From: Pleurocapsa sp. CCALA 161
GTDB taxonomy: Bacteria > Cyanobacteriota > Cyanobacteriia > Cyanobacteriales > Xenococcaceae
DNA: 48,108 nt
Direction of reading: 5' to 3'
NCBI RefSeq assembly: GCF_003003995.1
Contig: NZ_PVWF01000032.1
Location: 1-48,108, forward strand
The translations under genes and the position numbers were made by a program. Numbering within the stretch: the stretch's first letter is position 1; the number at the start of each line of letters is the position of its first letter. Shown here piece by piece: positions 29,188 through 34,696 of the stretch. A model generated the notes under the pieces. The model made no database searches. It was given only the letters and a program-made list of their open reading frames with translations, and was not told the origin of the DNA.

Positions 29188-30324
29188 ATGCCTAAACTTT
29201 TGGTTGTTACCACCGTCCCTATTACAATTCGCAGTTTCCTGCTTCCTTTGATCCAACATTTTCGCAGTTTAGGTTGGCAGGTAGACGCTATGGCGCAGGG
29301 TATTTCAGCCAATCGAGATTGTGTAGAAACATGCGATCGCATTTATGATATTCAATGGTCACGTAACGTTTTCGATCCAAGAAATTTATGGTCTGGAGTC
29401 TCGCGAGTCAAGCAAGTAGTAGCACAAGAAGATTATGATCTGGTTCATGTTCATACTCCTATTGCTGCCTTTGTTACTCGGTATGCCTTAAAGAATAACC
29501 AAAAAATCAAGGTTATTTATACCGCTCATGGTTTTCACTTTTATCATGGTGGGAATATAGTTAAAAACGCTATTTTTTTAAGTTTAGAAAAGCTGGCGGG
29601 GGCGTGGACTGATTATTTAATTACCATTAACCAAGAAGATGAAGCTGCTGCCAAAAAGTATAATTTTCTACCAGCCAACAGAATTTACTATACTCCTGGC
29701 ATTGGCGTAGATATTAACTACTATGCTTCTAGCAAGGTTGAGCCTGTAAATCTAGCACAGGTTCGTCAGCAGTTAAATTTAACCGACTCAGATACTCTAT
29801 TACTATGCATTGCTGAATTTACACCCCGTAAAAGACATCAAGACTTGCTCAATGCTTTAGCAAAAGTGGCTAATCCTCAAGTTCATTTAGCTTTAGCAGG
29901 AGAAGGTAGCGTTAAGCCCAAAATGGCAGAATTAGCCAAACAATTAGGAATAGTCAATCAAGTACACTTTTTAGGTTATCGTGACGACATCCCCACCTTA
30001 ATTCAAGCTGCTAATGCTGTCTTACTAGTTTCTCAACAGGAAGGCTTACCCCGTAGCATTATGGAAGCTATGTGTTTAAATACCCCTGTAATTGGCTCAA
30101 ACATTCGCGGTACTCAAGATTTATTAGAAAACGGCTGTGGTTTATTAGTCGATCTAGGAGATACTGATGCCCTCGCACAAGCAATGTCCAAAGTAATTGA
30201 AGATCCTGACAGCTTGGCAGTAATGGCACAAAAAGCTCAGACAAAAATAACCAACTACGATTTGAGTAGAATTATTCAACAATACGCTGATATCTATCAA
30301 TTAGCCTTGAGCGATGATAGTTAA
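29188..30324 (+). CDS. Glycosyltransferase family 4 (EpsD-like)
   Basis: The 378-residue GT-B enzyme has an N-terminal domain with DLVHVHTPIAAFVTRYA and the acceptor-side TAHGFHFYHGG, and a C-terminal UDP-sugar-binding domain with FTPRKRHQDLLNAL, LAGEGSVKPKM, LGYRDDIPTLIQAAN and the EX7E motif EGLPRSIMEAM. It transfers a sugar in polysaccharide or lipid-linked glycan synthesis. It is divergent from the PGM1-type ligase; the two share a short 136-bp intergenic region. Confidence 0.88.
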   Translation: MPKLLVVTTVPITIRSFLLPLIQHFRSLGWQVDAMAQGISANRDCVETCDRIYDIQWSRNVFDPRNLWSGVSRVKQVVAQEDYDLVHVHTPIAAFVTRYALKNNQKIKVIYTAHGFHFYHGGNIVKNAIFLSLEKLAGAWTDYLITINQEDEAAAKKYNFLPANRIYYTPGIGVDINYYASSKVEPVNLAQVRQQLNLTDSDTLLLCIAEFTPRKRHQDLLNALAKVANPQVHLALAGEGSVKPKMAELAKQLGIVNQVHFLGYRDDIPTLIQAANAVLLVSQQEGLPRSIMEAMCLNTPVIGSNIRGTQDLLENGCGLLVDLGDTDALAQAMSKVIEDPDSLAVMAQKAQTKITNYDLSRIIQQYADIYQLALSDDS

Positions 30325-30370: not shown

Positions 30371-31705
30371 CTAAACAGAAATTTTAACAGACTTTAATTT
30401 GTTAAAAACAAACTTGAATCTGTTTTTAACAGATTTGCCCAGGTCATTTAATTTTAGTTTAGACCAAATAGCACGTTGTCTTAGTAAACATATCAATATG
30501 CCTACTGCGATGACGCTGAAGGCTCGCAAGTAATCAACTGCTTCCACCTGTGCATCTGGCATTAAATAGTGTGGACCAACTAGAACCGTATGTACTACTG
30601 CGAAAATCATGGAAGGCAAACTTAATAAGTGAATCTGACGCCAAGCTTTGCCTAATTGACGCTGCATAAATTGAAAGCTAGTTGCTGCCGCAGGAATCAT
30701 AATACTCAAAGAGATGATGCCTGACCACATTCCCCACTTATTTTGAGTAGACATTAAGGAAATTGTTGCCCAATTTCCTTCCAAAAAATTTTCTGTGGCA
30801 TAGATTACATGAGCTAGCGCAGCGGCAAAAGCAATTACCCCAACACCTCGACGATATTTTAAAGGAATATCCCACCAAACTTTAATCGGACGAGCCATTA
30901 AAGCAAGCATGAGCAAGAACAATCCTATATGTCCTAGATCATGTCCTGCGCCCTCGATACGGGATAACACAAGTATTCCCGATACGACTAGCGCCCAATC
31001 TGCATAGGGCAACAATGGTTTTTCTGGTTTGGGTTTTTTGGCTTTTTTGGCAGTAGCCTTAGTGGCTGAAAGTTTGGCTTTAACTACTGGAGAGTCTGTG
31101 GGAGATACTTTTTGGGGCGCTAAATTGATCTCCTTTTCCTTATGGTTAGCATTTACGTTGAAGTCTGAAACTGCAATTTTGGCGAGACTATCCATCAGTT
31201 CGGCGGCAAAGTGATAAGAACCACTATGAACAGAGCGAATTGCCAAAGCCAATTCGCTCATAACCATGTTTTTCAAGACGTAGCCATTCGCTCCAGCAGT
31301 TATTATTTCTGACACAACCGAATCGTTAGAATCTTTATTAAATGCGCTTAAAATGAGAATTTTGACATCGGGGTTTTGTTTGGTAATTCTTTTGGTAGCC
31401 TCAATACCACCCATAACAGGCATCACTAAGTCTAAAACCACTACATCAGGCTTAATTTTGCTTACCTGCTCAACTGCATCTTTTCCATTCAGCGCATATC
31501 CAACTATCTCAATATCTTGATTGTCAGCAAATATCGCTTGTAATCCTTCACAAACCAGCTTGAGATCATCAACAATCAATACACGAATTTTGGGCTTGTA
31601 AAAATTTTGGTTGACATTTCCTGTAGTACTAAGAAGAGAAGAATCTTGAGAAGATGGTTTAGCGACAACAAATTGTCTACTTTCCATCACATCATTAGTA
31701 GTCAT
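30371..31705 (-). CDS. Fusion of a response-regulator receiver domain with a ferric-reductase-like transmembrane domain
   Basis: A 444-residue, single ORF. Residues 40-170 are a NarL-type receiver: Asp46/47 (VLIVDDLKL), phospho-acceptor Asp92 (VVVLDLVMPVMGG), Ser120 (ILSAF) and Lys145 (VLKNMV) are all present. The LuxR HTH that normally follows is absent. A Lys/Ala/Pro-rich linker (about 205-232) leads to five or six transmembrane helices (about 235-410) similar to the MsrQ/YedZ/ferric-reductase haem domain, with His299, His359 and His372 as candidate haem ligands and RRGVGVIAFAAALAHVIYA and WRQIHLLSLPSMIFAVVHT as the conserved blocks. No stop or frameshift lies at the join. Function is unknown. 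Confidence 0.8.
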   Translation of the reverse strand: MTTNDVMESRQFVVAKPSSQDSSLLSTTGNVNQNFYKPKIRVLIVDDLKLVCEGLQAIFADNQDIEIVGYALNGKDAVEQVSKIKPDVVVLDLVMPVMGGIEATKRITKQNPDVKILILSAFNKDSNDSVVSEIITAGANGYVLKNMVMSELALAIRSVHSGSYHFAAELMDSLAKIAVSDFNVNANHKEKEINLAPQKVSPTDSPVVKAKLSATKATAKKAKKPKPEKPLLPYADWALVVSGILVLSRIEGAGHDLGHIGLFLLMLALMARPIKVWWDIPLKYRRGVGVIAFAAALAHVIYATENFLEGNWATISLMSTQNKWGMWSGIISLSIMIPAAATSFQFMQRQLGKAWRQIHLLSLPSMIFAVVHTVLVGPHYLMPDAQVEAVDYLRAFSVIAVGILICLLRQRAIWSKLKLNDLGKSVKNRFKFVFNKLKSVKISV

Positions 31706-31844: not shown

Positions 31845-32825
31845 CTATTTGCTTTGAAATATGTTTTGAACCATTGCCCGAGGTATGTTTGCTGCTGCAC
31901 GATCTAATTCTGCTATTTCTCCCGCATCCAATAGCCAGTCTTGGGCGGCAATATTTTCCTGTGCCTGTTTGATATTTTTTGCTCCAGGAATCGGCATTGC
32001 ACCTTTAGCAATACACCAATTAATTGCTACTTGCGCCATGGTTTTATGACGGGATTGCGCGATCGCCTCTAGACAATCTAACAGTGGTTTAGCTTCGGGA
32101 ACTAATCTTCTGAAAAGTATTCCTCGTAACCCTTTGGGATAGGTACTCGGGTCATTATATTTGCCCGTGAGGATGCCCAAGCACAGGGGACTATAGGCAA
32201 TAAGTTTAATCCCCAATTCATCGCAGGTATCTTTAAGGCCTAATTCAGTTATGGGATAGGTGGATAATAAAGAATACTGCACCTGCAAAGTGGCAATGGG
32301 TATATTGCGATCGCTAAATTTTTGCTGAACTTGTCTTAATCTCTTTGTTCCATAGTTAGATAGTCCCACCCCCTTAATTACCCCCCGTTCATATAAATCG
32401 GCTAAACCATCCAAAAGCTGCCATTCTTGCCAGGGAAAGTAATTAGCCGTTGACCAGTGCAGCTGGGCCAAATCTACCCTCCCCATGCGCTCTATTGAGG
32501 CAATTCCTGCCTTGACCATTGATTTTGCAGTTAATCGCCAGGGATAAGCAGCCAGTTTAGTTGCCAAGCAGATCCGCTCTTTATTTACCCCCTGATATTC
32601 CCGCTCAAATTTTCCTAGTAGCTTTTCACTTTGACCATTGAGTTTACCTGTACCGTAAGAGTCCCCAGTATCAAACAAAGTTACACCGTTGCTAACGCAC
32701 AGATTGAATACTGCTTGTAATTGAGGATCCATACTTTGGTCATAACCCCACAGTAAACGATTTCCCCATGCCCAAGTTCCGCAGCCCATCTGGGGCAGAA
32801 TCAGTTCTTTAGTACTTGACATCAT
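31845..32825 (-). CDS. Aldo/keto reductase
   Basis: The 326-residue AKR shows the catalytic tetrad in order: Asp and Tyr in FDTGDSYGTG, Lys in LATKLAAYP and His in AQLHWSTA, with the (beta/alpha)8 barrel and NADPH-site end IPGAKNIKQAQENIAA. It reduces carbonyls with NADPH; substrate not assigned. MM at the start leaves two ATGs; either fits. It stands alone, upstream of a HerA-like gene in the opposite direction. Confidence 0.92.
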   Translation of the reverse strand: MMSSTKELILPQMGCGTWAWGNRLLWGYDQSMDPQLQAVFNLCVSNGVTLFDTGDSYGTGKLNGQSEKLLGKFEREYQGVNKERICLATKLAAYPWRLTAKSMVKAGIASIERMGRVDLAQLHWSTANYFPWQEWQLLDGLADLYERGVIKGVGLSNYGTKRLRQVQQKFSDRNIPIATLQVQYSLLSTYPITELGLKDTCDELGIKLIAYSPLCLGILTGKYNDPSTYPKGLRGILFRRLVPEAKPLLDCLEAIAQSRHKTMAQVAINWCIAKGAMPIPGAKNIKQAQENIAAQDWLLDAGEIAELDRAAANIPRAMVQNIFQSK

Positions 32826-32971: not shown

Positions 32972-34696
32972 ATGAACTCGCAACTCCCTTTAGGTTCAGT
33001 CATTCAAGGTTCTTTAACCAAAGGTTTAGAAGTAAGATTACACCCAGATGTATCGGTGGAAGATATGCGTGTCGGTAAATTTTTAGTGGTGCAGGGAACT
33101 AGATCTCGTTTCTTTTGCTTACTTACTGATGTTTCTCTTGGCTGTTCCAGCGATCGCATTATTGCTAATCCTCCTCCTATTGACGATACTTTTTTACGAG
33201 ATGTTTTAGCAGGAAGTGGTACTTACGGTACAGTCGCGCTGTCTCCGATGTTGATGTTTACTCCCACGGCAACCCAGAGCGATTTTTCTACCCTGCCCAT
33301 AGATCCCGATCTAGATCTTAATACTAGTTTGGGTTCAATGCAGCCCAACTCCAGCGCCGACATGGAATTGCTACCCGTGAAAACAATTCCCGCTCATTTT
33401 AGTCAAGTTTATGAAGCAAGCGAACATGACTTTCGTAGCGTCTTTGGTTGGGAAGACGATCCATTTCGGCGTAATTTTTCTGTTGGTCAACCTTTGGATA
33501 TGGAAGTGCCAGTCTGTATTGATCTAGATCGCTTTGTGGAAAGGAGTAACGGCATTTTTGGGAAGTCTGGTACAGGTAAATCATTTCTCACTCGTTTATT
33601 ATTATCAGGGGTAATTCGCAAAGAAGCAGCAGTCAATCTAATGTTTGATATGCATTCGGAGTATGGTTGGGAAGCCATGAAAGAAGGTAAGCAGGTAAGT
33701 ACTGTTAAAGGTTTGCGTCAGCTTTTCCCAGGTAAAGTAATGATGTATACCCTCGATCCTGAATCTACGAAACGTCGAGGTGTTAGGGATGCTCAGGAGC
33801 TTTATTTGAGCTACGATCAGATTGAGATTGAAGATTTAAAATTAGTTGCTTCAGAGTTAGGCTTATCGGAAGCGGCAATGGACAACGCCAATATTCTCTA
33901 TAACGAGTATGGTAAATCTTGGATTGTGCGTTTGCTCAACATGACTAACGAAGACATCAAAATGTTCTGCGAAGCAAAACAAGGACACCAGGGGTCAATT
34001 TCATCCTTGCAGCGCAAATTAATGCGCTTTGATACCCTTAAATATATTCGCTCAACTTGTCCCCACAACTACATCGATCAGCTAATTCAAGATTTGGCTG
34101 CGGGAAAAAACGTAATTATCGAATTTGGTTCTCAGTCCAATATGCTGTCTTATATGTTGGCGACTAATATGATTACTCGCCGTATTCATGCCAGCTATGT
34201 CAAGAAAGCCGATCACTTTCTGCAAACCAAAAACCCCCTAGACAAACCTCGTCAGCTTGTGATCACTATTGAAGAAGCCCACCGTTTCCTCGATTCTGGC
34301 GTCGTTCATCAAACTATCTTTGGCACGATCGCGCGGGAAATGCGCAAATATTTTGTTACCCTGCTAGTAGTGGATCAGCGCCCTTCAGGAATTGATAACG
34401 AGGTTATGTCCCAGATCGGAACTCGTGTCACCTGCTTGCTTAACGATGAAAAAGACATTGAGGCAATTTTTACTGGAGTGTCTGGAGGAGCAAATTTAAA
34501 ATCTGTCTTAGCCAAGCTTGATTCTAAACAACAGGCTTTAATTTTAGGTCATGCTGTACCGATGCCCGTAGTTGTCCGTACTCGACCCTATGATGCCCAA
34601 TTCTATCGCGAAATTGGCTGTACTGATTGGGAAGAAATGCCCAATGAAGAAGTGTATGCAGCTGCAAAAGTCGCCAAAGCAGATTTAGGATTTTAA
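32972..34696 (+). CDS. HerA/DUF87-type hexameric ATPase
   Basis: A 574-residue FtsK/HerA superfamily ATPase. The N-terminus (about 1-130) looks like the HAS barrel. The P-loop GKSGTGKS is at 197-204, Walker B in LVITIEEAHRFLD (about 428-440), followed by VVDQRPSGIDNEVMSQIGTR, the arginine-finger region. Members move DNA in end processing (with NurA) or sort other DNA; in cyanobacteria this single-gene form is conserved without a linked nuclease. No NurA, SIR2 or nuclease gene is adjacent, so there is no sign of a defence pairing here. Confidence 0.85.
   Translation: MNSQLPLGSVIQGSLTKGLEVRLHPDVSVEDMRVGKFLVVQGTRSRFFCLLTDVSLGCSSDRIIANPPPIDDTFLRDVLAGSGTYGTVALSPMLMFTPTATQSDFSTLPIDPDLDLNTSLGSMQPNSSADMELLPVKTIPAHFSQVYEASEHDFRSVFGWEDDPFRRNFSVGQPLDMEVPVCIDLDRFVERSNGIFGKSGTGKSFLTRLLLSGVIRKEAAVNLMFDMHSEYGWEAMKEGKQVSTVKGLRQLFPGKVMMYTLDPESTKRRGVRDAQELYLSYDQIEIEDLKLVASELGLSEAAMDNANILYNEYGKSWIVRLLNMTNEDIKMFCEAKQGHQGSISSLQRKLMRFDTLKYIRSTCPHNYIDQLIQDLAAGKNVIIEFGSQSNMLSYMLATNMITRRIHASYVKKADHFLQTKNPLDKPRQLVITIEEAHRFLDSGVVHQTIFGTIAREMRKYFVTLLVVDQRPSGIDNEVMSQIGTRVTCLLNDEKDIEAIFTGVSGGANLKSVLAKLDSKQQALILGHAVPMPVVVRTRPYDAQFYREIGCTDWEEMPNEEVYAAAKVAKADLGF

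Follow-up and report, generated by a model that had tools for sequence, protein, structure and literature searches.

A receiver domain fused to a ferric-reductase-like haem membrane domain in one genus of cyanobacteria

Introduction

Response regulators are best known for their action on DNA, on second messengers, or on other soluble proteins, and YedZ/MsrQ is the haem subunit of the MsrPQ system. Here, we describe a gene that brings together parts resembling both kinds of protein, a receiver domain fused to a ferric-reductase-like haem membrane domain (REC-FRD fusion), in a stretch of 48,108 nucleotides from Pleurocapsa sp. CCALA 161 of the Xenococcaceae (contig NZ_PVWF01000032.1 of assembly GCF_003003995.1, positions 1 to 48,108 of the forward strand; this whole stretch is referred to below as the window).

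The described proteins that come closest share either one half of the fusion or the other. YedZ/MsrQ, which belongs to the short forms of the PF01794 family, resembles it in its six helices, in an Arg that replaces the first His of transmembrane helix 3 (TM3), in His at three further positions, and in lacking a flavin or NAD(P)H domain; the fusion differs in that it carries a receiver and scores below the MsrQ cut-off. STEAP1-4 and NOX proteins have the fold and the haem positions in common with the fusion but carry other domains, such as the NADPH-binding domain of STEAP2-4 and the EF-hands of some NOX proteins. On the signaling side, the NarL/FixJ regulators LiaR, VraR, and DesR share receiver sequence, predicted fold, and the start of the linker, whereas the fusion lacks their helix-turn-helix (HTH) and carries a membrane haem domain there.

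In the part of a STEAP/NOX review that was available (PMC3591440), the six bacterial extensions listed relate to electron transport or exchange and a receiver or response regulator is not mentioned. A 2004 title in its reference list indicates that YedZ-type proteins fused to transporters or to electron carriers were already known. The MetOD3 response regulators have a membrane-anchored output domain, as the fusion does, but they are archaeal, the domain is uncharacterised, and haem is not mentioned for it in the available part of the source (PMC5847659). We found no report of a receiver-ferric reductase fusion in the literature searched, a collection that lacks most subscription papers.

Domain composition of the fusion protein

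The fusion gene is a single open reading frame (ORF; 31705-30371, minus strand) that starts with ATG, stays in one frame, and contains no internal stops. It has the following features.

30371..31705, minus: REC-FRD fusion gene, 444 amino acids (aa), defined by its ORF, Pfam, and relatives
31238..31582, minus: receiver domain, aa 42-156 (PF00072, invariant residues, LiaR/VraR/DesR-like model)
31565-31570, minus: receiver D46/D47
31430-31432, minus: receiver D92
31346-31348, minus: receiver S120
31271-31273, minus: receiver K145
31019..31174, minus: Lys/Pro linker, aa 178-229, fast-evolving and mostly of low model confidence (predicted local distance difference test [pLDDT]; ratio of nonsynonymous to synonymous substitution [dN/dS])
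30479..31018, minus: six-helix ferric-reductase-like haem domain, aa 230-409 (PF01794, AlphaFold2 model, STEAP/b561/NOX matches)
30788..30853, minus: TM3, aa 285-306, with R285 at 30851-30853 and H299 at 30809-30811
30629-30631, minus: H359, just ahead of TM5
30566..30622, minus: TM5, aa 362-380, containing H372 at 30590-30592

Pfam recovers Response_reg (PF00072) at aa 42-156 with 82.6 bits against a cut-off of 30.2 (E = 2.8e-23) and Ferric_reduct (PF01794) at aa 262-369 with 40 bits against a cut-off of 28 (E = 4.8e-10), and in all eight copies of the fusion that were found (see below) both domains exceed the curated cut-offs. The two domains are separated by a linker of the NarL type and a stretch rich in Lys and Pro. 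The inner start candidates close to the junction are ATG 171, TTG 231, and TTG 232, so it is unlikely that the membrane part is made separately.

Judged by its residues, the receiver is an intact NarL-type domain with a full phosphorylation site. A sequence-only reading of this DNA had claimed that the phosphorylation residues are complete, and D46, D47, D92, S120, and K145 are indeed in place and, together with five His, show no variation across the eight copies. The predicted receiver fold brings LiaR, VraR, and DesR receivers to the top of the structure list, and the best NCBIfam matches are MctR and UvrY, both under their cut-offs. The 25 best of 99 NCBIfam matches cover the receiver and linker only, ending at or before aa 207. 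No HTH family is found by Pfam anywhere in the fusion protein, so the C-terminal LuxR-type HTH that marks NarL/FixJ regulators is missing and PF01794 is found instead. The proposed replacement of the HTH by membrane helices after a Lys/Pro linker is borne out in this respect, with six helices predicted by AlphaFold2 (aa 234-247, 253-270, 285-306, 320-341, 362-380, and 389-409).

The whole-protein AlphaFold2 model, built from an 83-row alignment, reaches a pLDDT of 79 and a predicted template modelling score (pTM) of 0.53, with the receiver and the six helices confident and aa 168-215 of the linker below 50; modelled alone, the membrane part reaches a pLDDT of 87 and a pTM of 0.79. Arg285, His299, His359, and His372 do not vary in any of the eight fusions or in any of the 69 domain rows compared. 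In the available part of PMC3591440, the YedZ/STEAP1 group is described as having Arg at the first TM3 position and His at positions 115, 209, and 222 in NOX2 numbering. The spacings in the fusion, 14 residues from R285 to H299 and 13 from H359 to H372, equal those of 101-115 and 209-222 in NOX2, and by this comparison of residues the membrane domain fits the YedZ(MsrQ)/STEAP1 haem signature.

A structure search with the haem domain gave STEAP, cytochrome b561, and NOX proteins as top matches; by sequence, no solved relative appeared up to an E value of 10, and Pfam finds no flavin or NAD(P)H domain in the fusion protein. In all eight copies, Lys and Arg cluster at four places, namely, the linker, the loop between TM2 and TM3, that between TM4 and TM5, and the C terminus, the other loops having none or one each, and because of this distribution (the positive-inside rule) we place the receiver in the cytoplasm.

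Distribution and origin

Searching 291 genomes of the order with the fusion profile yielded eight fusions in seven genomes, the source genome counted, and all of them lie within its genus (7 of 13 genomes), with none in the remaining 278; one further row, the ninth, comes from genome G007 and is a haem domain standing alone. In a sample of 386 genomes across the phylum, two had a match: one was the window itself, and the other, in G011, covered the haem domain only. These searches covered cyanobacteria, at thresholds of 1e-70 (order) and 1e-60 (phylum) with few scored candidates per genome, so diverged fusions could escape; beyond cyanobacteria, only a plasmid collection was searched, with the haem part as query, and it returned one record, the known Chondrocystis one. 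Within this scope, the fusion is found in one genus of coccoid cyanobacteria only. The domain pair is thus present in other genomes, where the sequence-only reading had suggested looking for it, and its worry that the pair might be an assembly error absent from relatives falls away. Two of the eight copies belong to G008, one on the 4.5-Mb contig G008:C1 and one on plasmid record AP018283.1. The latter was deposited for Chondrocystis sp. NIES-4102, and in it the plasmid2 copy (NIES4102_41980) is annotated merely as a ferric reductase domain-containing protein.

Besides Chondrocystis sp. NIES-4102, the named carriers are Hyellaceae cyanobacterium CSU_1_1, Pleurocapsa sp. MO_192.B19, and Waterburya agarophytonicola KI4 (L066, L068, and L069). 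Among the best 80 of 105 named loci, the fusion occurs in 3 and a stand-alone haem domain in 1 (L067). At another 75, the haem domain lies in an ORF of 390 to 455 aa with no receiver match in the same ORF, and L070 has no such ORF in the ORF scan. The one ORF of this type that was checked by Pfam, L002 of the source genome, contains DsbD_2. It and the fusion are the only PF01794 proteins found in that genome, and its haem domain is the genome's nearest to that of the fusion (46% identical), but it has an N-terminal DsbD_2 where the fusion has the receiver and falls in a separate clade on the tree.

In a tree with midpoint rooting only, the haem domains of the eight fusions group with two stand-alone domains in a single clade (100/100) that excludes the 92 other rows, and the fusion receivers likewise form one clade (100/100; one copy was entered twice). 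Both clades fit a single origin, and these trees suggest that the fusion was probably made once in the genus. A NarL-type regulator's receiver and linker would then have been joined to the type of haem domain that in other proteins follows DsbD_2. Descent from the DsbD_2-FRD paralogue of the genus is unsupported, as the fusion haem domains keep to their own clade. The two stand-alone domains are L056:8012-8656 (G007), which retains a Lys-rich start like that of the fusion, and L057:7998-8489 (G002). They are nested in the fusion clade and may have lost the receiver, the inner forks being weak.

Values of dN/dS (NG86) against the G003 copy (94% identical) and the G002 copy (66% identical) are 0.27 and 0.32 for the whole gene. 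By segment, they are lowest in the receiver (0.12 and 0.14), higher in the haem domain (0.36 and 0.29), and highest in the linker (0.49 and 0.88). In a two-protein tree of the HerA-like ATPase and the aldo/keto reductase encoded near the fusion in the window, the carriers split into two groups plus G007, and this scatter calls for losses or transfers rather than plain vertical descent.

A wider set of receiver-membrane proteins

The haem fusion is one member of a wider set of receiver-membrane proteins in the three Xenococcaceae genomes counted. In the source genome, which gave 72 matches, the best 19 receiver rows (E ≤ 1e-14, with the haem-only L002 excluded) comprise 13 receivers followed by hydrophobic segments, the fusion included, 4 with an HTH, 1 cut by a contig end, and 1 bare. 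With the receiver alone as query at the same threshold, hydrophobic segments follow 9 of 13 receivers in G013, which belongs to another genus of the family (3 have an HTH and 1 neither), and 9 of 12 in G008, two of them the haem fusions (2 have an HTH and 1 neither). Seven control genomes from five other families gave hydrophobic segments on 0 of 19 receivers (16 scored at a mean hydropathy of 1.5 and 3 at 1.6) and an HTH on 15. The membrane test is crude (Kyte-Doolittle, 19 residues, mean 1.6 or 1.5); it gave two probably false segments on the CheB-like L214 (E = 2.1e-14, not counted) and only one late segment on L011, and the HTH call used a short home-made motif pattern.

Pfam, run on ten of the source-genome receivers, places HlyD families in three and BON in one above cut-off. 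These are L004, L014, and L019, in which a receiver is joined to a membrane segment and an HlyD-type secretion adaptor, and the receiver-membrane-BON protein L010. By length, membrane segment, and likeness rather than Pfam, L193, L196, and L202 of G013 and L225 and L236 of G008 are also judged to be receiver-HlyD proteins. Among 100 genomes of the order, receiver-HlyD proteins occur in 5, which are all 5 of the family in the sample, and 15 more matched the HlyD part only. L011 carries its receiver on a polysaccharide co-polymerase-like protein (GNVR below cut-off). L006, L007, L008, L009, L012, L017, and L018 lack an HTH and carry a C-terminal hydrophobic segment, and the middle of some of them resembles a coiled coil; L009 is an intact receiver protein of 247 aa, with stops ahead of the receiver, and is counted among the 13. 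All of these fusions resemble the haem fusion in having an N-terminal NarL-type receiver on a membrane protein, but their output is an adaptor, BON, or a tail anchor where it has a haem domain. The claim of a new output mode therefore stands in part: the HTH is swapped for a haem-type membrane domain, but receivers on other membrane segments are common in the three family genomes.

We tentatively suggest, leaning rather against it than for it, that the NarL receiver became a general phospho-handle on membrane proteins in one cyanobacterial family, with the haem fusion as its redox branch. If so, two-component signals would act directly on membrane machines, such as secretion adaptors, envelope proteins, and a haem electron-transfer protein, and no transcription would be needed. 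The set, which was found in one family and not in the seven control genomes, would offer many natural tests of direct receiver control over membrane proteins.

Proposed mechanism and alternatives

Our results lead us to propose, at about even chances, that the fusion works as a response regulator with a b-type haem protein of the membrane as its output, a cytoplasmic phospho-switch controlling electron transfer. The anatomy of the protein supports this reading, and phosphorylation, haem, and control are inferred. One haem would be held between His299 in TM3 and His372 in TM5, and electrons would cross the membrane toward the periplasmic or lumenal side. Since the fusion itself lacks a flavin or NAD(P)H domain, the donor would be external, either a quinone or a flavin reductase of the cytosol. 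On the cytoplasmic side, D92 would receive phosphate from a histidine kinase whose gene lies elsewhere. Receivers of the NarL type pair once phosphorylated, and such pairing could join haem domains or open donor access, so that electron transfer is switched on or off. In this way, a kinase could adjust how electrons flow across a cyanobacterial membrane, and no new transcription would be needed.

Several observations weigh against this proposal. The pTM of the whole-protein model gives no confident domain arrangement, Foldseek finds no PDB match for the haem domain at an E value of 0.001 or below (the best is 2.2e-3), and the MsrQ model NF003831 scores 38 bits, far below its curated cut-off of 130. 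The linker is evolving almost freely, which fits tethering as much as signaling. Six of the 13 genus genomes have no match, which suggests that the fusion is dispensable (one of them, G009, the sister of G007, is an assembly in 940 contigs), and with no conserved neighbour, the context names neither a kinase nor a redox partner.

The signal might run the other way, the haem domain sensing membrane redox state and altering gain or loss of phosphate on the receiver, so that the protein would serve a shared kinase as a redox-gated phosphate sink or adaptor. Cyanobacterial membranes do carry redox signals, and the fully conserved receiver site and the lack of fixed neighbours would suit such a role; we nevertheless consider it unlikely, as the haem domain belongs to the electron-transfer type, the partner domain in the paralogue, DsbD_2, is transporter-like rather than a signal domain, and the receiver is N-terminal, as in ordinary regulators. 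Equally improbable in our view is that the receiver, whether phospho-controlled or constitutive, serves for docking and positions the membrane protein near kinases or receiver-bearing membrane proteins, with electron transfer unaltered. This could hold for the whole receiver-membrane set, and both the fast-evolving linker and the presence of the same receiver type on membrane parts as different as HlyD, BON, tail anchors, and the haem domain speak for it, but it leaves the conserved catalytic residues and the low receiver dN/dS unexplained unless docking needs phosphate.

Six helices would also suffice if haem had been lost and the membrane domain merely anchored the receiver, and tail-anchored receivers do exist in the same genome; the invariance of the four signature residues, in all eight fusions and throughout the 69 domain rows, makes this very improbable. 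Practically no chance is left for an assembly chimera or a chance ORF. The former is refuted by eight copies in seven genomes, including contig G008:C1 and plasmid AP018283.1, and the passing of both cut-offs in every copy together with low dN/dS shows that the ORF is not a chance one.

Genomic neighbourhood

Two genes flank the fusion gene in the window.

31845..32825, minus: upstream aldo/keto reductase, adjoining the fusion in G000, G003, and G002 only and so not a conserved partner
29188..30324, plus: convergent glycosyltransferase, adjoining the fusion in G000, G003, and G002 only

In G010, G005, and G007, the fusion occupies a second common site, after two putative DUF3038 and DUF4335 genes. 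The chromosomal and plasmid copies of G008 lie at other places, and one downstream gene is common to G007 and G008. The aldo/keto reductase-HerA pair occurs without an adjacent fusion in eight other genomes, and in G004 only about 0.6 kb can be read on that side. With the gene at several differing sites, identification of a partner by its neighbours is ruled out. By Pfam, neither a histidine kinase nor MsrP is among the six annotated neighbours in the window; for the remaining copies, neighbouring genes were compared, but few of them were checked for MsrP.

A gene for an NMT1-like binding protein (L055:9469-10518) overlaps the fusion gene on the plasmid, and another (L057:6151-7233) lies near the stand-alone haem domain of G002. 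A link of this protein to the haem domain is weakened by its presence in every one of the 13 genomes, with 25 places listed, and by a haem domain near only these 2 of the 15 loci examined. The HerA-like ATPase of the window (32972-34696) is also matched in all 13 genus genomes, at 91 to 99% identity in the other 12, and its gene is in pieces in the draft G003 (G003:C11:47747-49454, L049), which perhaps reflects draft quality.
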